Source: Prevotella sp.
Lineage (GTDB): Bacteria; Bacteroidota; Bacteroidia; Bacteroidales; Bacteroidaceae
Assembly (NCBI GenBank): GCA_017619755.1
Contig: JAFZRU010000037.1
Span: forward strand, 49,650 to 113,649
Reading direction: 5' to 3'
DNA length: 64,000 nt
Shown: one piece after another, positions 25,213-35,566 of the stretch
How the letters are laid out: the number at the start of each line of letters is the position of its first letter
Position numbering within the stretch: the stretch's first letter is position 1
The notes under the pieces: generated by a model
What the model was told of the DNA's origin: nothing
The model's input: the letters and a program-made list of their open reading frames with translations, nothing else
The model's database searches: none
Made by a program: the position numbers and the translations under genes

Positions 25213-28200
25213 ATGAAAAAAATTTTATGGTTATTCCTGAGTTTCCTGCTATTCTTGACAGGAACACAAGCAGTTTCTGCAGAAGGCGAGTTCACAGCCA
25301 CTTACGCCGTGCAAGAGGGCGAGACATTCGCCTCCGGTGAAACCGTCAGCGTGACGGCCAACGGCACGGAAGTGGCCACCCTCACCTTCGGAGAGGCGGG
25401 CGGCAACGAGTTCCAAGCCGGCGCCGCCGACGCACACATCGAAGGCTTCGTGGCCTACACTCCTGGCAACGGCACCAACGGCAACAAGGCCGGCGGCACT
25501 TTCTACACCATCGTACCGAAATACGACGGCAAGGTGACCATCGGCGTGGTTCTCAACAGCGAGAAGGACCTCTTCATTCTGGAAGACGGCACGGCTTTGG
25601 AGGACTACAACGGCATCCGCAAGTCGGAGAAATACTACGGCACTTTCGACTTCGACGTGAAGGGCGGCAGCAGCTACAAGATTTACTGCGCCGGCTCCAA
25701 GCTCGGATTCTACGGTTTCAACTACAGCGGGACTATTTCGGCACCGACAGAGGAAATCTACATCGAGACCGACCTCACCAACCAGTTCGGTTCCCTCACC
25801 GAGTACACCAACTGGGTGGGTGCCAGCGGCTATGCCACATGGGCTGCTCCCCAGGTGACCACCAATGCTGGCAAGACCGTCTACATGTGCGAGAGGTATG
25901 ACACCAACTGCGACACGACGGGTGACGTGTTCTACCAGAACCTCACCGGCCTCACATCCGGCACCTACAAGATTGAACTGTACGGCTCGGCAGCGTTCAC
26001 CTTCGGACGTGGCATCCGTTCCGATGCCTTCGCCGACGACGACACACCTGAAGGCCCGCTGACCGAAAACACCGGCATCAAGCTCTACGCACAAACCTCC
26101 GAAGGCGTTGTGGAGCAGGAAATCGCCGCTTACAAGGCCACCTCGTTCTCCGAGGTTTCCACCGCCGTGCTCGACGGCGTGGTAGTGGGCGAGGACGGTG
26201 CCATGAAACTTGGAATGAGCAAGAGCACCTACTCAACCAACTGGCACATCGTGCAGCTCAAGGGCGTCACCGCCAAGGTGTTGGCCTCCGAGCTATACGC
26301 CACCTACATCGCACAGGCACAAGCCCTCTTGGGCGAACCGATGAACGGCGAGACCCTCGCACAACTGCAGGCCGCCATGGTGGACAACAGCGGCTTCACC
26401 ACCGCTGAGCAGTACGAGCAGGCCATCGCCACACTGGAAGCTGCCATCACCGCTGCCAACAGCTCCGTGGCCGCCTACAAGAACGTGAAGGACGCCCTCG
26501 ACACCTACGCTGCGAAGGCCGCCCAGCTCGACGCCGCCGGCCAGGCAGCCTACAACGTGTCTGCCATTCAGAAAGGCTACGACGAGCGCACCCTGACTGA
26601 CGACAGCGTCATTGCCGACATCGCCAATGCATACATCGCAGCGGTGAAGCAGCAGACCACCCCGGGCTCCGACTACACCGATGCCGGAAGCAAGGCACAG
26701 TCGGCATGGATTGGCTCCACCGGTTCTTACCAAGGAGACTACGCCGAGCGCTTCGGCCAGGAGATGCCCGCCGACACCATCATGCACCAGACCATCAGCG
26801 GTCTGAAGGAAGGCACCTACAAAGTGGAGCTGTACGCCGTAGCCAGCCAGGCATGGAACAGCGCAGCCGTGGGCAACGACATCACCGTGGCCTACGCCAA
26901 CGAAGGCATCTACCCATTGGAGGTCATCGCTCAAGTGGCCTGCGATCCAAGCCAAAGCGTGGCCACCATCGAAGCCACCGTTGGCAGTGACGGTCTGCTT
27001 GACATGGGTATGCGCAACATCGCCGCAGGCGGCAACTGGTTTGTCATCCAGCTCAAGTCCATCACCCTCGAAAGCCTGAAAGCACAGGTGGGTGAGCCAC
27101 TCCAACTCTTCGTCGAGAGCGGCAAGGACATCACCGCCGAACTGGCAGCAGCCCTTGAGAGCAACCCGAATCCCTCAAGCATCGAAATCGATCTCGCCGC
27201 CGGCGGACAGTACACCGTCAGCGGGACCATCGAGACGGCAGCACCACTCACCATCTTAGGTGACGTTTCCGACATCGCCACCATCGACGCTTCCGCACTG
27301 AGCGCACCGATGACGGCCATCAGCACCACCCCGTATGAGAGCACGCTCAACGCCGCCAACAACTTCTACGGCATCGGCGACATCGCCTTCAAGAACGTGA
27401 AGGTGAAGGGTCTCGCCCAGCAGCTCATCTACGGCAACAAGGTGCGCGCATTCATAGAGAACCTGATTGTCGAGAACTGCATCATCGAGATTGCCGGTGG
27501 CAGCAAGACGACCTTCGACTTCAACGGAGGCGGCGTCGTGGGCCACTTAACAGTAAACAACTCCACCATCTACGGTAACCCGCAGCACACCGGACAGCTC
27601 TACAGCTCGCAGAGCGGACAGAAGGCTACTGAGGTGAGCGACGACTTCATCCAGAAGTTCACCTACATCAACAGTACTTTCTACAACTTCTCCTACGCAA
27701 AGAACGTCACTTCTCACCGCCAAAGCAACCAGAAGTGGCTGAGCTACGAACTGACCAACTGCCTCGTCATCGACTGCGGCAAGGACGGACAGTTTGTCAA
27801 GGGTCTCAACGGAGGCCAAGGAGGTGCCAACCCCATCTGGAACATCTCCGGCAACTCCTTCCAGCGCATTGTTGACGGTGCATTTACCGACATCAGTGCC
27901 AACGAGAGCACCGGCGACGACGAGGAGCCTGTGACCTACAACGTGGAAGGCGTGGTGGTCTTCGCCGGCGACTATGCCAACGGTGACTTCACCTTGGGTA
28001 GCTGCCCGCAGAACGGCGCCCTCATCGGCGACCCGCGTTGGTTGAGCATTGACAACACCCTCGTGCTCGACGTGGAGAGTGGCAAGGACATCACCACCGA
28101 ACTGGCAGCAGCCTTGGAGAGCAATCCTGCTCCGTCGGCCATCATCATCAACCTCGCCGCCGGCGGACAATACACCGTCAGCGGAACCATCGAAACGGCC

Positions 28201-30126
28201 GCACCGCTCACCATCTCAGGTGACGCTTCCGACATCGCCACCATTGATGCTTCCGCACTGAGCGCACCGATGACGGCCATCAGCACCACTCCGTATGAGA
28301 GCTCGCTCAATGCCGGCAACAACTTCTATGAAATCGGCGACATCACCTTCCAGAACGTAAAGGTGAAGGGTCTTGCCCAGCAGCTCATCTACGGCAACAA
28401 GGTGCGCGCATTCATAGAAAACCTGCTTGTCGAAAACTGCATCATCGAAATTGCCGGTGGCAGCAAGACGACCTTCGACTTCAACGGAGGCGGCGTCGTG
28501 GGTCACTTAACAGTGAACAACTCCACCATTTACGGCAACCCGCAGCACACTGGACAGCTCTACAGCTCGCAGAGCGGACAGAAGGCAACTGAGGTGAGCG
28601 ACGACTTCATCCAGAAGTTCACCTACACCAACAGCACCTTCTACAACTTCTCCTACGCAAAGAACGTCACTTCTCACCGCCAAAGCAACCAGAAGTGGCT
28701 GAGCTACGAACTGGCCAACTGCATCGTGGTGGATTGCGGCAAGGACGGACAGTTTGTCAAGGGTCTCAACGGTGGCCAAGGAGGTGCCAACCCCATCTGG
28801 AACATCTCCGGCAACTCCTTCCAACGCATTGTTGACGGTGCTTTCACCGACATCAGCGCCAACGAGAGCACTGGCGACGACGAAGAGCCCGTGGATGACA
28901 TTCTGGAAGGCGTGGTGGTCTTCGCCGGCGACTATGCCAACGGCGACTTCACCTTGGGTGTCTGCGTACAGGACATTGTTGGTATTGGCGACCCGAGGTG
29001 GCTAAGTGGCACCAATTACTATGACTTTGTGGCCAGCGAATGGATTGCCGGCGACCCAGGTCGCATCAGTCCCGAGCAGGTGAGCGTCAATGAAGAAGAG
29101 AACACCATCACGGTGAGTCAGACAGGCCAGAACAACGTGAACCTGCTCTTCCGCTCGCAGAACGTCTATACCGTACCGGCAGAAGCCCGCTACTTCATCA
29201 TCACCGCCACCGGTCTCTCCACCAACGACGGCGACAGCTATCTCTGGTGGATGAACAACACCAACGACGGAGGCCAGTACAAGCCCACAGTCATCTACGG
29301 GGAGGACGGCGAGACCGTCTTCGCATGGGATGTCAGCCTGCTTTCCATCGGCGGCACCCTCGGCTTCACAAATACGGAGTTCAAGGACGACGGCGGATGG
29401 AGCACCACCTTCGGCATGACGCTTGCCGACCCGGCAGTGCCGGCAGTCATCAGCTACATCGGCTTCACCAGCACCATCGAGCAACCGACGGAGGAGGCTG
29501 AGTATGCATGGGATGCCACGCTGTGGGTGGCTGGCGACCCAGGACGTATCACCGCCGACAAAGTGGTGGTGGACGAGACCGCCAACACCATCACGGTGAG
29601 CCAGACAGGTGACAACAACGTGGCACTGCTCTACCAGACCGACAAGGTGCTTTACGTGAACAACGCCAAGTACTTCGTCATCCAGGGCAAGGGTCTCTCC
29701 ATTGCCTCCACCAAGTCTTACCTCTGGTGGCTGAACAACACGAACAACGGCACCCAGGTGGAGCCTAACATCGCAGTGGAGGACCAGGACGGCACTGTCA
29801 CCCTCGTGTGGACCATCGCCGACACCGGACTGGGTGCATCCTTTGAGACGGAGACAGGCAAGACCTACCTCGTGGGCAATGCCGGATGGAACACCACCTT
29901 CGGCCTCACCCTGGCCGACGAGAGCGTGCCGGCAGTCATCAGCTACATCGGCTATGAGACGACCGACTCTGACATCGTGAAGCACGCAGAGGAGCTCAGC
30001 GGCATCGTCAACGTGACCATCGACGTGGCCAACGGCGACATCTACGACCTCATGGGCCGCAAGGTGCTTACACCGCGCAAGGGCAATGTCTATATTCAAA
30101 ACGGAAAGAAGTTCGTCGTGAAATAA
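25213..30126 (+). CDS. Large secreted repeat protein with T9SS-like tail, beta-helix domains
   Basis: A 1637-residue exported protein with signal peptide MKKILWLFLSFLLFLTGTQA. After two carbohydrate-binding-like beta domains (about residues 25-370) comes an Ala-rich helical linker (about 370-480), then another beta domain. Two nearly identical 320-residue units follow at about 632-951 and 952-1271. Each has beta-helix character (IENLIVENCIIEI, NNSTIYGNPQ) and ends in GDPRWLS, reminiscent of DUF4957/DUF5123 proteins from pectin-use loci. Two diverged 155-residue repeats (SYLWWMNNTN and SYLWWLNNTN) precede the tail IYDLMGRKVLTPRKGNVYIQ and GKKFVVK, which resembles a T9SS sorting signal. It is probably surface displayed and glycan binding or cleaving. 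Confidence 0.78.
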   Translation: MKKILWLFLSFLLFLTGTQAVSAEGEFTATYAVQEGETFASGETVSVTANGTEVATLTFGEAGGNEFQAGAADAHIEGFVAYTPGNGTNGNKAGGTFYTIVPKYDGKVTIGVVLNSEKDLFILEDGTALEDYNGIRKSEKYYGTFDFDVKGGSSYKIYCAGSKLGFYGFNYSGTISAPTEEIYIETDLTNQFGSLTEYTNWVGASGYATWAAPQVTTNAGKTVYMCERYDTNCDTTGDVFYQNLTGLTSGTYKIELYGSAAFTFGRGIRSDAFADDDTPEGPLTENTGIKLYAQTSEGVVEQEIAAYKATSFSEVSTAVLDGVVVGEDGAMKLGMSKSTYSTNWHIVQLKGVTAKVLASELYATYIAQAQALLGEPMNGETLAQLQAAMVDNSGFTTAEQYEQAIATLEAAITAANSSVAAYKNVKDALDTYAAKAAQLDAAGQAAYNVSAIQKGYDERTLTDDSVIADIANAYIAAVKQQTTPGSDYTDAGSKAQSAWIGSTGSYQGDYAERFGQEMPADTIMHQTISGLKEGTYKVELYAVASQAWNSAAVGNDITVAYANEGIYPLEVIAQVACDPSQSVATIEATVGSDGLLDMGMRNIAAGGNWFVIQLKSITLESLKAQVGEPLQLFVESGKDITAELAAALESNPNPSSIEIDLAAGGQYTVSGTIETAAPLTILGDVSDIATIDASALSAPMTAISTTPYESTLNAANNFYGIGDIAFKNVKVKGLAQQLIYGNKVRAFIENLIVENCIIEIAGGSKTTFDFNGGGVVGHLTVNNSTIYGNPQHTGQLYSSQSGQKATEVSDDFIQKFTYINSTFYNFSYAKNVTSHRQSNQKWLSYELTNCLVIDCGKDGQFVKGLNGGQGGANPIWNISGNSFQRIVDGAFTDISANESTGDDEEPVTYNVEGVVVFAGDYANGDFTLGSCPQNGALIGDPRWLSIDNTLVLDVESGKDITTELAAALESNPAPSAIIINLAAGGQYTVSGTIETAAPLTISGDASDIATIDASALSAPMTAISTTPYESSLNAGNNFYEIGDITFQNVKVKGLAQQLIYGNKVRAFIENLLVENCIIEIAGGSKTTFDFNGGGVVGHLTVNNSTIYGNPQHTGQLYSSQSGQKATEVSDDFIQKFTYTNSTFYNFSYAKNVTSHRQSNQKWLSYELANCIVVDCGKDGQFVKGLNGGQGGANPIWNISGNSFQRIVDGAFTDISANESTGDDEEPVDDILEGVVVFAGDYANGDFTLGVCVQDIVGIGDPRWLSGTNYYDFVASEWIAGDPGRISPEQVSVNEEENTITVSQTGQNNVNLLFRSQNVYTVPAEARYFIITATGLSTNDGDSYLWWMNNTNDGGQYKPTVIYGEDGETVFAWDVSLLSIGGTLGFTNTEFKDDGGWSTTFGMTLADPAVPAVISYIGFTSTIEQPTEEAEYAWDATLWVAGDPGRITADKVVVDETANTITVSQTGDNNVALLYQTDKVLYVNNAKYFVIQGKGLSIASTKSYLWWLNNTNNGTQVEPNIAVEDQDGTVTLVWTIADTGLGASFETETGKTYLVGNAGWNTTFGLTLADESVPAVISYIGYETTDSDIVKHAEELSGIVNVTIDVANGDIYDLMGRKVLTPRKGNVYIQNGKKFVVK
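27106..29025 (+). repeat. Exact-period 960-bp internal tandem duplication
   Basis: Copy one (27106-28065) and copy two (28066-29025) align without any gap at a period of exactly 960 bases (320 codons). Long blocks such as 27601-27750 against 28561-28710 are almost identical, while the first 60 bases and the unit ends differ more. The preserved frame and patchy divergence suggest a fairly recent duplication with later conversion. Confidence 0.93.
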
Positions 30127-30288: not shown

Positions 30289-32943
30289 CTAATTCTTGAT
30301 AATTGATTTGCTCGGTGAACCAATTTGGACGTATTGTGGCTGTGCGTAGCAATAACCCTGGTAAATCATTGCGTTTGGATAGACCTTCATTCCATCGTAA
30401 CTGTATGAGGCCATCATGTCACCACCATAGTCCACCGAATGAATGTTGTTCATATCGAAAGCTTCCACCTTCTTGGCATAGACCACGTCGATGCCCATGC
30501 AGCCCTTTGATATGTTTGAGGTGTAGAAGCAATGGTCAATTCTGCTGTAATCTTTGTTGTCTATTAATCCCACGATTGCTCCCTCATTGTTGTCGCAATA
30601 AACGTGGTCACCATCATACAAACAATTGACGATTTGCTTGTTAAAGACGGAAGAATTATGACAACAACCTACAAGGCCTCCAAACGAGGTGCCTTTTTCT
30701 TCATCGTTCCACACCTTGAAAACGTTTGCAGCACTCGTGCAGCCGCTGAGTTGCCCCGAACATTCACCTACAATGCCTCCATAGTTGTCGCCATCTACTT
30801 CTGAATTAGAGCCTTTGGTGCAAATCACATCCACGCTCGATGTCACATGGCAGTTGGAAACCGTGGTATTATAACCTGTATATCCCACGATGCCCCCCAC
30901 GCAAGAGCCATTGGCACATATAATTTGCGACTCGGTGAGTGTGAGGTTCTTGACGGAACCATTATATGTAATTCCACCAAAAAGTCCTTGTGGATAATAG
31001 TAAGAAGAGGTGTTGTTGCGTTCAAAATGAACCCCCTTGATGGTGTGTCCCTGTGCATCAAAATACGCAAGAAAACCTACTTCATCTCCCGGATTATTGG
31101 AGCCTATGGGAATCCAGTCGTAGGGAGTGAGGTCCAAGTCTCTTTCCAAACGGATGGTCCACCAGACGTAAGGCACTCTGGAATCCACTGTGCTGTTGAA
31201 GATTGACGCGAGCAGCGCCAGTTCCTCCTCGCTCGTGATGGTGATGACTTTGTTGTCATTGTCGATTTTGGAGAACTCCGCAGCCTTGTATCTGCTCCAA
31301 CTGCCACCCTTGATGATGTGGAAAGACTTGGAAGCCTCTCCTGCGTAATAGCCAATTCCCTCCACCACGAGGGTGTATGCACCAATTTCCTTTATCTCCT
31401 CCACCACATTTCCATTACTGTCCTTGATGTAAAAGATGAAATCCTCGTTGGGGATGGCTTTGCACCGCCCTCCTTCTTCATAAGGAGGATAAACTTCTAT
31501 TGATTGCCCAAGTTCTTCGTAGTAATCAAAACCATCATATTTGAGAAAGCGCGAGGGAATGTAAATGATGGATTTGCTAATGTCGTACATGGTAACGGCG
31601 ACCCGAATTGTTGCAGATTGACCGCACTCCACGTCAGTCACCGTGATGGTAGTATTTCCTGCCTTTTTGCCCGTCACCTTGACCATACCATTCTCTATCA
31701 CCGCTGTGGCTATCTCATTGATGTCAACCTCGACGTTATAGTTGCCACTGCCAGATATGATTTCCACCGTTCTCTGGGTATTGACAGCCATTCGTAAGTT
31801 TTCCTCGGCAAGTCGGAAATTGTAAACTGTGACTTCGATGGTTGCAGTCTGCAAGCTCGTCATATCCGTCACCGTGATGACAGCCTGGCCATCGCCGATG
31901 CCAGTCACTGTGATTTGGGAGCCTTCCATCGCTGCCGTGGCAACAGCCTCGTCGCTGCTCACCACGGAGTAATTGCCACTGCCGGAGGTAACCTCCACCG
32001 TGTTCTGGGAGCCAACGGCAAGGGTGAGAGAGACAGAGGAGAGCTCAAGGTCGAGGCCACACCACACCGGGCGCACCGTGCGACCGTAATAGCGTTCGTA
32101 TTTGGCACAACCCACGGCGTTATTCCCCACGGCGTCCATGCGGAAGTACAGGCAATAGGCGGCGTACGAGCGCGACAGGTCCTGCGTGGACGACGAGTAT
32201 TCGCCACGGCTGCCAGCGTTGCTCAAGGAGCCGTCCCAGTAGTAGCCCGCCGCAGGCAGGAATATGCTGACGCCGTTGGTCTTGCTTGTGAACTTCTCAC
32301 CGTTGACATCACCGATGGTGGTCCATTCGTGGCTGCAGTTGTCCAACAGTTCCTCCAACTGGTCTTGAGATGGCATCATCCAGCCGCCGCCCCATTTCAC
32401 ATGGGCGACATCGTAATCAGTGCCGGCGATGTCTGACCCGAGGTTGTCATAAATGGCATAGGCAGGGGTTTCACTGCCATAAGCATAGGAGTCCAAAGAG
32501 TAAGAGTTATTCTCCTGCACCTCCGTCTCGCCCCAAGCGTAGTAGCCGCCATAGTTGGACGGGCTTTGATTCCCAAGGTTTTTCGTGTCCACATTGCAGC
32601 ACGCCCATAAAGTGCCGGAAGGCAGGCCGAGGTTGATCATGTGCGGGTGGTGGTCGTCGGGGCAGGCGAGGTAGGATGGCAACTCCCCGGGATTGAGAAT
32701 GCCCAAGATTTTGTTAACCAAGCACGACACGTCGGTGACGTTGGTCACGCCGTCGCCGTTGACGTCATAGATGTAGCCTTGTTCATCCTCTCCCGCATTG
32801 GGCACACCAAGGATGTTGTTGACCAGGAACGTCACGTCGGTGATGCTCACCACGCCGTCCTTGTTGACGTCGTAGTGGTAAGTCCTTGCTCCAACCATTG
32901 TCACAGTCAGCAACATTGCAAGGGAGATAGATAGTTTTTTCAT
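30289..32943 (-). CDS. Secreted multidomain protein: dockerin-like, FISUMP-like, Ig-like, GLUG-like
   Basis: An 884-residue exported protein with signal peptide MKKLSISLAMLLTVTMVGA. Two dockerin-type repeats come directly after it (YDVNKDGVVSITDVTFLVNN and YDVNGDGVTNVTDVSCLV, residues about 22-90). A FISUMP-like domain follows (about 105-300, with YYAWGETE and VKWGGGWMMPS), then two BIG2-like beta domains (about 300-455), an MBG-like segment (about 460-560) and GLUG-like repeats (about 600-770, GGIVGYTGYN and GGIVGECSGQ). No T9SS tail is visible at the C-terminus. It is probably a surface adhesin or scaffold. The dockerin pair at the N-terminus is unusual compared with clostridial enzymes. 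It is convergent with the 1637-residue protein. Confidence 0.8.
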   Translation of the reverse strand: MKKLSISLAMLLTVTMVGARTYHYDVNKDGVVSITDVTFLVNNILGVPNAGEDEQGYIYDVNGDGVTNVTDVSCLVNKILGILNPGELPSYLACPDDHHPHMINLGLPSGTLWACCNVDTKNLGNQSPSNYGGYYAWGETEVQENNSYSLDSYAYGSETPAYAIYDNLGSDIAGTDYDVAHVKWGGGWMMPSQDQLEELLDNCSHEWTTIGDVNGEKFTSKTNGVSIFLPAAGYYWDGSLSNAGSRGEYSSSTQDLSRSYAAYCLYFRMDAVGNNAVGCAKYERYYGRTVRPVWCGLDLELSSVSLTLAVGSQNTVEVTSGSGNYSVVSSDEAVATAAMEGSQITVTGIGDGQAVITVTDMTSLQTATIEVTVYNFRLAEENLRMAVNTQRTVEIISGSGNYNVEVDINEIATAVIENGMVKVTGKKAGNTTITVTDVECGQSATIRVAVTMYDISKSIIYIPSRFLKYDGFDYYEELGQSIEVYPPYEEGGRCKAIPNEDFIFYIKDSNGNVVEEIKEIGAYTLVVEGIGYYAGEASKSFHIIKGGSWSRYKAAEFSKIDNDNKVITITSEEELALLASIFNSTVDSRVPYVWWTIRLERDLDLTPYDWIPIGSNNPGDEVGFLAYFDAQGHTIKGVHFERNNTSSYYYPQGLFGGITYNGSVKNLTLTESQIICANGSCVGGIVGYTGYNTTVSNCHVTSSVDVICTKGSNSEVDGDNYGGIVGECSGQLSGCTSAANVFKVWNDEEKGTSFGGLVGCCHNSSVFNKQIVNCLYDGDHVYCDNNEGAIVGLIDNKDYSRIDHCFYTSNISKGCMGIDVVYAKKVEAFDMNNIHSVDYGGDMMASYSYDGMKVYPNAMIYQGYCYAQPQYVQIGSPSKSIIKN

Positions 32944-33179: not shown

Positions 33180-33187
33180 TATCTTTG
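33180..33187 (+). promoter_or_regulatory. Promoter -7 box of the ATPase/DUF4435 cassette
   Basis: TATCTTTG lies 22 bases before the ATG at 33209, so the leader would be only about 15 bases. This excludes the upstream in-frame ATG at 33125. The -33 element is not obvious. Confidence 0.6.
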
Positions 33188-33208
33188 CCGTGCTTAAACC
33201 ATGATGCC

Positions 33209-34030
33209 ATGCAGAAATACGCCGATTACATCGAACAAATAGAGATAGACTCCCTTTGGAGCGGCCGCCGCCACATCAAATGGGACTTGGACCAACACGT
33301 GAACATCCTCAGCGGCACCAACGGCCAGGGAAAGAGCACCATTATCAATAAGGTGGTGAAAGGCCTTGCCGCCGGTGGCGAATACCCCAGTCACCTGCTC
33401 AAGGGCGTACACCTGAAGGTGTACCCTGCCGAGGCGAAATGGATACGCTATGACGTCATCCGCTCCTTCGACCGCCCCTTGATGAACCTCGACACGCTGG
33501 CCAAGATGGACATGAGCCTTGCTACCGAACTCGACTGGCAACTCTTCCAACTCCAGCGCAAGTACTTGGACTATCAGGTGAACATTGGCAACCGCATCAT
33601 CGAGGTGCTTCAGAGCGGAACTCCCGATGCGGCCATAAGGGCTCAGGAACTGTCCGCTCCGAAGAAACGTTTCCAGGACCTGATGGACGACCTCTTCTCC
33701 GACACGGGGAAGAAAATCGTCCGCACTGCCAACGAGATCTTCTTCTCCCAGATAGGCGAGACATTGGTGCCTTACCAACTGTCGAGCGGCGAGAAGCAAA
33801 TGCTCGCCATCCTCCTCACCGTGCTCATCCAAGACAACAAACCCTCGGTGCTCTTCATGGACGAGCCGGAGGTGAGCCTCCACATCGAGTGGCAGAAGCG
33901 CCTCATCGACATGGTATTGGAACTGAACCCCAACGTGCAAATCATCCTCACCACACACTCTCCCGCCGTCATCATGAACGGCTGGATTGACCATGTGACC
34001 GAGGTGTCCGACATCACCGACAGCCTATAA
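33209..34030 (+). CDS. ABC-type/OLD-like ATPase, AriA-like
   Basis: A 273-residue ATPase. Walker A is GTNGQGKST at 36-44, the ABC-type signature is LSSGEKQ at 191-197, Walker B is VLFMDEPE at about 214-221, and the switch His250 lies in TTHSP. This is the head-domain layout of SMC/Rad50/OLD-type ATPases with only a short insert between the halves, so no long coiled coil. No nuclease domain is fused. The partner gene, 39 bases on, encodes a DUF4435 protein, the pairing used by PARIS anti-phage systems (AriA plus AriB). The role here is inferred. A housekeeping role in Bacteroidales is possible. Confidence 0.82.
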   Translation: MQKYADYIEQIEIDSLWSGRRHIKWDLDQHVNILSGTNGQGKSTIINKVVKGLAAGGEYPSHLLKGVHLKVYPAEAKWIRYDVIRSFDRPLMNLDTLAKMDMSLATELDWQLFQLQRKYLDYQVNIGNRIIEVLQSGTPDAAIRAQELSAPKKRFQDLMDDLFSDTGKKIVRTANEIFFSQIGETLVPYQLSSGEKQMLAILLTVLIQDNKPSVLFMDEPEVSLHIEWQKRLIDMVLELNPNVQIILTTHSPAVIMNGWIDHVTEVSDITDSL

Positions 34031-34069
34031 CCCATCCCTTTCCATCCAACCCCACCCTTCCCACCACCC

Positions 34070-35176
34070 ATGGCCAAACGCCTCCGAGACAACCTCAACT
34101 CCGACTACTTCAGCGCTGCCAACAAGCTGAAGCCCAAGATGGCGCGCCGACGAATCGCCGCCTACGTGGAGAGCTACGACGACATCTTCTTCTGGCGGTC
34201 GGTGCTGAGTGAGTTTGAGGACGACACCCGCTATTTCGAGGTGATGCTCCCCTCGAAGGTCAACCTATCAAAAGGCAAGAAGCAAGTGCTGATGAACCTC
34301 GTGAGCGACAACGTGGGGGAGGACCTGATAGCCTGTGTGGATGCCGACTACGACTTTCTTGTTCAAGGAGTTACAAAAACGTCGGAGAAGGTGATTCACA
34401 ACCCCTACGTCTTCCACACCTACGTCTATGCGATAGAAAACTACCAGTGCTACGCCCCCTCCCTTCACAACGTGTGTGTGATGGCCACGCTCAACGACCA
34501 TCAGATATTCGATTTTGAAGAATACCTGCGCCAGTTCTCCCAGGCCATCTTCCCCCTCTTCGTGTGGAGCATCTGGTATTACCGTTCCACGAAATACACC
34601 GATTTCACCATCACCGACTTCAACAAAGTGATTGAGACGGGCCATTTCACCTTGGCCAACGCCGCCGACGGCCTCGCCAACGTGCGCCACAAGGTGGGGC
34701 GGAAAATCATCCAACTGCAAAAGGAGAACCCCGAAGCCAAAGCCTCCTATTTGGCACTTAAAGACGAACTGAAAGCCCTCGGAGTCACGGCCGACACCAC
34801 CTACCTCTACATCCAGGGACACCACCTCTACGACAACGTGGTGGCTCCGATGCTCGGCAAGGTATGCGACCGCCTCCGCCGAGAGCGGGAGGTAGAGATT
34901 CACAACAAAGCCGTCCACCACACCCAGATGCGCAACGAACTGTCGTGCTACGAGCACAGCATAGAGAGCGTGTCGGCGATGCTGAAGAAAAACACAGGCT
35001 ATACCCGCTCCAAACCCTACAACCGCCTTCGCTCCGACTTATCGCACTTCCTCTCCCACCTGCCTCCCTCGCGGGAAACGGAAGCCACCGCTCCTCCCCC
35101 ACAAGCAGAGCCAACACCCACTCCCCTGCCATCACAACAATCCCAAGAGCCGCTCCCGGCTTCCCAAGACCAATAA
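34070..35176 (+). CDS. DUF4435 (TOPRIM-like) protein, AriB-like
   Basis: A 368-residue protein. The N-terminal AYVESYDDIFFWRSVL puts a Glu at residue 34, and IACVDADYDFL gives Asp91, Asp93 and Asp95. This Glu plus DxD layout is the metal site of TOPRIM folds as seen in DUF4435. A middle helical region with conserved aromatic residues follows (HTYVYAIENYQCY). The last 40 residues are Pro/Gln/Thr-rich and probably disordered. In PARIS the equivalent AriB is a toxic nuclease held by the ATPase until triggered. The intact acidic residues suggest an active site. Confidence 0.78.
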   Translation: MAKRLRDNLNSDYFSAANKLKPKMARRRIAAYVESYDDIFFWRSVLSEFEDDTRYFEVMLPSKVNLSKGKKQVLMNLVSDNVGEDLIACVDADYDFLVQGVTKTSEKVIHNPYVFHTYVYAIENYQCYAPSLHNVCVMATLNDHQIFDFEEYLRQFSQAIFPLFVWSIWYYRSTKYTDFTITDFNKVIETGHFTLANAADGLANVRHKVGRKIIQLQKENPEAKASYLALKDELKALGVTADTTYLYIQGHHLYDNVVAPMLGKVCDRLRREREVEIHNKAVHHTQMRNELSCYEHSIESVSAMLKKNTGYTRSKPYNRLRSDLSHFLSHLPPSRETEATAPPPQAEPTPTPLPSQQSQEPLPASQDQ

Positions 35177-35179
35177 CCT

Positions 35180-35566
35180 ATGGAACAGAAAACTGCCTCC
35201 CTCCAGACCGCCCGCCTGCTGCGCAAGCACCGCTTCAACGAGCCCACCACGAGTTACTACGACGCCGACGGCGTATTCCGCACCGTGAGCGCCTCCGACG
35301 CTTGCAATTGGAACAGCCCCACCTACGACAAGAGTCCTCGCAAGAAAGCCTACTCCTCCCCTCCCCTTTCCGTGGCCCACCAATGGCTTCGTGAGAAGAA
35401 GCGGTTCGACGTGCTGGTGGACCGTGACTACCTTTTCGGCAAGGTAGGCAAGTATTTCGCCAAAATCATTCGTCTGAAAGACGGAGCCATCAGCGAGACA
35501 GGCCAATACCGCAGTTTTGAGAAAGCATTGGAGCAAGGCATTGTGAAAGCCCTCCGCACGATGTAA
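35180..35566 (+). CDS. Small protein of unknown function, third gene of the cassette
   Basis: A 128-residue protein starting 3 bases after the DUF4435 stop, so surely cotranscribed. It has no signal peptide or membrane span. The layout (SVAHQWLREKKRFDVLV in the middle, then a beta pair, then SFEKALEQGIVKAL at the end) resembles small proteins common in Bacteroidales mobile elements, but I cannot name a function. Its tight coupling to the ATPase/DUF4435 pair makes an accessory or sensor role possible. The next promoter (nhaD) begins only 60 bases later. Confidence 0.72.
   Translation: MEQKTASLQTARLLRKHRFNEPTTSYYDADGVFRTVSASDACNWNSPTYDKSPRKKAYSSPPLSVAHQWLREKKRFDVLVDRDYLFGKVGKYFAKIIRLKDGAISETGQYRSFEKALEQGIVKALRTM

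Follow-up and report, generated by a model that had tools for sequence, protein, structure and literature searches.

Within a 64,000-nt stretch of a Prevotella sp. genome (GCA_017619755.1, contig JAFZRU010000037.1, positions 49,650–113,649 of the forward strand; hereafter the window, to whose positions all coordinates refer), we analyzed three closely spaced genes that all lie on the plus strand. The first (33209..34030, start ATG 33209) encodes a compact AriA-like ABC ATPase of 273 aa, with Pfam matches to AAA_21 (78.6 bits, cut-off 27) and AAA_15 (64.2 bits, cut-off 32.1). After a gap of 39 nt, the second (34070..35176) encodes an AriB-like protein of 368 aa that matches DUF4435 with 190 bits (7.2e-56; cut-off 27), and a third gene of 128 codons (35180..35566) follows after only 3 nt. 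Ahead of the ATPase gene, on the same strand, positions 33180..33187 hold TATCTTTG, which we take to be a promoter element of the TAnnTTTG (−7-like) type; when 20 upstream regions were aligned, a TAnnTTTG-like element could be seen by eye in 18, the exceptions being L036 and L038. Judging from strand and spacing, a single promoter probably serves all three genes.

The best PADLOC models for the first two proteins were those of the anti-phage system PARIS, namely AriA for the ATPase (6e-56) and AriB for the DUF4435 protein (3.7e-64). Searched against the PDB as a single sequence, the ATPase found PARIS AriA as its first match (1.9e-13), and a profile of 45 ATPase sequences, every one of which matches PADLOC AriA, reached AriA structure 8ux9 at 3.7e-21. 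The AriB protein, alone or as a profile, gave no convincing match to the PDB by sequence, and neither did the phage-borne AriB-like protein of 813R9, which served as a yardstick; an NCBIfam search returned nothing useful.

Catalytic residues and selective constraint

At the sequence level, the ABC motifs that characterize AriA and the TOPRIM catalytic Glu and DxD that characterize AriB are all present. Among 173 distinct AriA sequences, the Walker A residues (G36, N38, G39, G41 and K42), the signature LSSGE, the Walker B motif MDEPE and H250 show conservation of 97% or more, which together with the open reading frame and the Pfam matches confirms the ABC-type ATPase with Walker A, signature, Walker B and switch His described in a first-pass annotation of this DNA. 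The same annotation had given the DUF4435 protein a Glu34 and an Asp91/93/95 cluster, and this too stands: the core of the protein (residues 1 to about 300) carries E34, D91, D93 and D95, identical in all 180 distinct complete AriB homologues of the family. When aligned with the AriB-like protein of Escherichia phage 813R9 (BLASTP E 0.004; hhalign probability 88%), the Glu and the DAD motif coincide, and the third Asp of the window's AriB corresponds to a Thr. This alignment, the PADLOC matches and the PDB matches of the ATPase support the proposed homology to PARIS AriA and AriB.

Selective constraint was estimated as Nei-Gojobori dN/dS by comparing the window with as many as 15 close relatives, excluding pairs of unbounded dS and taking medians. 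Only the ranking of these medians is to be trusted because median dS was near or above 1: they were 0.048 for the H+-pyrophosphatase gene (7 finite pairs), 0.049 for ariA (14), 0.090 for the AriB core (13), 0.142 for the transporter gene (4), 0.156 for the third gene (12), and 0.37 for the AriB tail (11). The ATPase gene is under about the same constraint as a core enzyme, the nearby H+-pyrophosphatase, and the Pro/Gln-rich tail that had been noted on the DUF4435 protein does exist, as a variable and fast-evolving segment from about residue 301.

The third gene was found where it had been annotated, 3 bases after the DUF4435 gene, and is a real coding gene. It has neither a Pfam nor a PADLOC match and resembles phrog_12005 (6e-7), a phage protein family of unknown function. 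Its interpretation as an extra accessory part, which would make the locus a three-gene cassette, draws on the 3-nt spacing, the shared strand, the purifying selection and its position after ariB in 18 of 111 early loci (counting that of the window), but is opposed by the phage family match and above all by a distribution confined to 14 of the 200 genus genomes. In seven of these, the window included, the gene lies directly 3′ of ariB; in the other seven it is not on the contig of a listed DUF4435 match, or there is no such match. We rejected the three-gene system on this distribution, consider an accessory role very improbable, and regard the gene as a local addition that is no component of the conserved pair.

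Distribution and descent of the pair

Counting the window's own genome at every rank, DUF4435 was detected in 191 of 200 genus genomes, including all 85 that are near-complete; by eye, 165 of the 191 have one match and 26 have two or three. The second copies in G067 and G188 are of the compact type, and both genomes are 5–6% contaminated, which makes paralogy and mixed bins indistinguishable for them. At the level of the family Bacteroidaceae, 242 of 249 genomes and all 22 genera were positive. A mobile defence system would in general be patchy and lie in a mobile-element or defence-island context; the family count, the housekeeping genes that flank the pair, the lack of a close AriB relative among phage records and the lack of PADLOC matches in five window neighbours show neither. 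DUF4435 was present in 41 of 198 genomes across the order (38 of the 41 outside the family) and in 14 of 296 across the phylum (11 of the 14 outside the family). Presence outside Bacteroidaceae may also be clade-wise: in family f54, two added genomes were positive like the two positives already known (4 of 4), and in another family all four genomes of genus g5 were positive and none of three from a second genus, both families having been chosen because they contained positives.

The two genes travel together. In a set of 210 loci, which counts some genomes twice and includes a few loci from outside the family, ariA adjoins ariB in the same direction with a median gap of 20 nt, and 207 of the gaps fall within −30 to 150 nt. 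Six of the seven DUF4435-negative family genomes also lack AriA at 1e-20, and in the seventh (G848) AriA sits right at a contig end; in G902, where the DUF4435 match reaches just 1.4e-5, AriA is absent too.

Phylogenies of AriA+AriB and of partial RpoB, built with FastTree for 50 genomes, shared 26 of 47 splits, compared with a mean of 0.2 and a maximum of 3 in 200 label shuffles, and the AriA+AriB tree recovered 23 of 32 well-supported RpoB splits. All eight multi-member genera tested were monophyletic in both trees, and the members of a ninth (g305) pair in both drawings. The RpoB tree has flaws of its own: once outgroups and the genomes that have lost the pair are added, genus g2 splits and one genome of another family falls inside it. 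Distances correlated with those of RpoB at 0.50 for AriA and 0.61 for AriB, or 0.58 and 0.68 without G693 and G710, and the correlation between AriA and AriB (0.72) was higher than that of either gene with RpoB. Replacement or fast divergence does occur, as seen in the divergent pair of G693 (AriA 30% and AriB 35% identical to the window's) and in the AriA of G710 (42%). Overall, inheritance of ariAB is mainly vertical, with partial agreement with RpoB.

Genomic setting, loss and mobile elements

For the neighbourhood we used the best 80 (L032–L111) of 224 relatives in named genomes. By Pfam, recurrent neighbours of the pair are housekeeping genes: dxs, trkA, trkH, a manA-like gene, EamA, a PLP-dependent enzyme, mscS, a DUF1573 protein and an AAA_11/AAA_12 helicase-like protein, and an annotated Bacteroides finegoldii record, in which the pair lies between the EamA-type transporter and mscS, also names meaB and alpha-2-macroglobulin. 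At least one of manA, trkH, trkA, dxs, EamA and the PLP enzyme is in the fetched DNA of 68 of these best 80 loci, and EamA or members of dxs-trkA-trkH also lie near the pair in genera g2, g287, g289, g293, g294, g300, g301, g302 and g304, although the flank side is not constant (g304) and the EamA cluster may contain more than one paralogue. None of nine tracked flank families was found in nine of the 22 genera (g288, g291, g292, g295–g299 and g305), each represented by one to three loci, some of them short. With flanks recurring in several genera and none of those tracked in these nine, a single old position is likely for part of the family, the pair having since moved or having reached it more than once.

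The window itself has a dockerin-type protein, a CitMHS-family ion transporter and the H+-pyrophosphatase as flanks. In L036, a near relative, the pair stands between dxs-trkA-trkH-manA and the same transporter and pyrophosphatase, an arrangement that links the window's site with the dxs-trkA-trkH-manA site. The first-pass annotation had named universal presence at the same syntenic position with vertical inheritance as the finding that would speak against a defence system; universal presence and vertical inheritance largely hold, and constancy of position holds in part, given the nine genera without tracked flanks. Its observation that no other defence gene is near agrees with our PADLOC scan, in which none of five window neighbours matched. 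Two further proteins were noted in the window: one of 1637 aa (25213–30126) contains two near-identical tandem blocks, an internal duplication, with DUF4957, DUF5123 and pectate-lyase-like matches, and one of 884 aa (30289–32943, minus strand) carries a dockerin type I domain near its N-terminus, along with weak GLUG/Ig-like matches.

The pair is missing from five g2 genomes that group as a single clade (support 1.0); at least one lineage can do without it. EamA and mscS are still about 5 kb apart in these genomes, and the interval between them holds three ORFs in the two that were examined in detail; in one of these, Pfam identified the ORFs as aconitase, isocitrate dehydrogenase and citrate synthase. 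Replacement of the lost ariAB by another defence system was rejected for the loci examined, where these TCA-cycle genes lie. The meaB side of the pair-bearing g2 genomes was not found in the five loss loci, which means that the interval corresponds just in part. This loss bears on a reading in which the two genes are housekeeping RNA-processing factors, AriB acting on cellular RNA like the TOPRIM maturase RNase M5 and AriA as its energy-dependent cofactor, with no toxin or defence role. The core distribution, the strong constraint and the resemblance of the AriB active site to RNase M5 (PMC12409363) fit such a pair, but the lack of the pair in one clade of the family and its patchiness elsewhere are not what one would expect of an RNA maturase, and the studied homologues are growth-arresting effectors; we consider RNA processing unlikely.

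A tblastn search of 50,697 phage records with AriB gave no match at E up to 1, a result to be read as the lack of a close AriB relative, since the same collection contains the 813R9 AriB-like protein, which this search missed and which was reached through AriA. With AriA, 19 phage records matched at 1e-3, none of them reaching 60% identity. AriB matched 19 of 72,556 plasmid records, two of them above 50% identity; the annotated one of these two is typed as non-mobilizable and carries A2M-DUF1573-meaB-DMT-ariA-ariB-mscS in the order seen in g2 genomes. Plasmid carriage was rejected for this record on its gene order, and is not settled for the other, which is unannotated. In IMG/VR one relative was confirmed out of 56 pattern matches (L316, 5001–5999), with an AriB 27% identical, an AriA match nearby and an intermediate Walker A–signature spacing of 225.

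Proposed role and comparison with PARIS

AriA of E. coli PARIS forms a hexamer that holds three AriB (PMC12409363), and phage triggers set AriB free to dimerise and to cut tRNA-Lys, among others (PMC12409363, PMC11455837). Having the same parts and residues, the pair described here is most economically explained as an ATPase-gated TOPRIM ribonuclease. By analogy with PARIS, compact AriA, an ABC-type ATPase, most likely binds and restrains the predicted TOPRIM ribonuclease AriB; an intracellular signal would cause AriA to release or activate it, and AriB would then cleave tRNA or a similar folded RNA and stop translation. It cannot be assumed that AriA simply sequesters a lethal AriB, because deletion of ariA is non-toxic in E. 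coli B185 (PMC9122126). As the ATPase bears no sign of an arms race, our guess is that the trigger would be a general signal of cell state or DNA/RNA integrity, for which phage attack may be one cause but not the only one.

We favour, with about even confidence, the reading that ariAB is a core, mainly vertically inherited two-gene PARIS homologue that works as such a switch and either became resident or always was. Near-universality, adjacency of ariA and ariB, co-loss, agreement with RpoB, housekeeping flanks, purifying selection, active-site invariance and the lack of a close phage AriB all support it, against which stand the loss clade, the divergent G693 and G710 sequences, the partial tree agreement, the nine of 22 genera without tracked flanks, the B185 result and the absence of a PDB sequence match for AriB. 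The history of the pair and its constraint favour a resident, general role over an arms-race weapon, though only moderately, and suggest a safeguard built into the cell rather than an acquired weapon.

A strong rival, in our view quite possible if somewhat doubtful, is that a true PARIS anti-phage system was fixed in the ancestor of Bacteroidaceae as core abortive-infection immunity, triggered by phage anti-restriction or DNA-mimic proteins. Intact catalytic residues and the PADLOC matches to AriA (45 of 45 in the alignment) and AriB speak for it, as does agreement with the published detection rule of Rousset et al., which calls PARIS from an adjacent AAA_15 or AAA_21 ATPase and DUF4435 protein scoring above 32, 27 and 27 bits, respectively (PMC9122126); the window pair scores 64.2, 78.6 and 190 bits. 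Fixed immunity accords less well with the core distribution and housekeeping flanks, an ATPase dN/dS ranking with that of a core enzyme (about 0.05), the shortened ATPase, the lack of a close phage-borne relative and the lack of a defence gene among the five window neighbours in PADLOC.

Returning to the resident switch, we propose tentatively, with rather less than even confidence, that a PARIS-type nuclease switch, its ATPase trimmed and its trigger endogenous, is a core module of the whole family, as a domesticated immune system or as the resident ancestor of mobile PARIS. Were this true, published PARIS counts in gut Bacteroidales would largely measure taxonomy rather than immunity, and should the pair be a core set passed on vertically, the PARIS pattern may largely reflect community composition. 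PARIS calls in gut Bacteroidales are already in print (PMC10924106), and surveys may count this pair as PARIS because the published rule would call it and it matches the PADLOC PARIS models; a strong version of this view is weakened by a Prevotella-rich rumen survey whose main text has 0 occurrences of PARIS (PMC13356809). Our literature searches found no statement of the pair as a core, vertically inherited gene set and no Bacteroides mutant phenotype. The case allows one to ask, in gut commensals, whether an immune effector can turn housekeeping or the reverse, with the loss clade as a natural control.

Among known systems, the PtuA-type ATPases (Septu and retron-associated) resemble the window ATPase in their ATPase domain (PADLOC 5.8e-24; PDB PtuA) but match it more weakly than AriA does, and the partner in the window is a DUF4435 protein. 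A fused form of PARIS has been described (PMC9122126), and in other Bacteroidales families DUF4435 occurs in open frames of 519–574 aa (L113, L116, L117, L119–L125, L127, L128, L132 and L137) that are likely single-gene AriA-AriB fusions; they share DUF4435 with the window pair and differ in being probably fused and in matching the compact AriA profile weakly (8e-10 to 9e-6 in the matching order-level loci). A suspected fusion in L207 (646-aa open frame) was rejected, its two genes being 44 nt apart in different frames. Family f103 has AriB-like proteins (about 330 bits; L115/L242 and L118/L245) with no compact-AriA profile match in the fetched DNA, which may be AriB with another partner or none.

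Closer in organization is a PARIS-like pair of two genes in Escherichia phage vB_EcoM-813R9 (Peduoviridae; L319, 3987–6090), with a 419-aa ATPase (PADLOC AriA 5.7e-40, PDB AriA 6e-17) and the 283-aa AriB-like protein (PADLOC AriB 2.3e-24) whose Glu and DAD align with those of the window's AriB. It differs in being phage-borne among tail genes, in the Thr at the third Asp and in an AriA Walker A–signature spacing of 308. This spacing is 151–173 in 193 of 197 family AriA (the others 123, 242 and two unmeasured), 129–225 in short and intermediate forms outside the family, and 308–354 in five long-form loci (L319, L141, L143, L149 and L150).

E. coli-type PARIS (AriA structures 8ux9 and 8v45–8v49) likewise consists of adjacent ABC ATPase and DUF4435 genes, and the window ATPase profile matches both the N-terminal Walker A and the C-terminal signature/Walker B regions of E. 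coli AriA. Between these two conserved blocks, however, E. coli AriA has 312 residues and compact AriA 137, about 175 fewer; the long stretch that is absent here is a feature of the studied AriA that may or may not define PARIS. Of the idea that the locus is a Bacteroidales version of PARIS, the homology and the compact ATPase hold good, the extra accessory gene does not, and a role against phage is quite possible. PARIS overall is found in 5.2% of genomes (PMC9122126), whereas the pair described here is found in nearly all genomes of its family.
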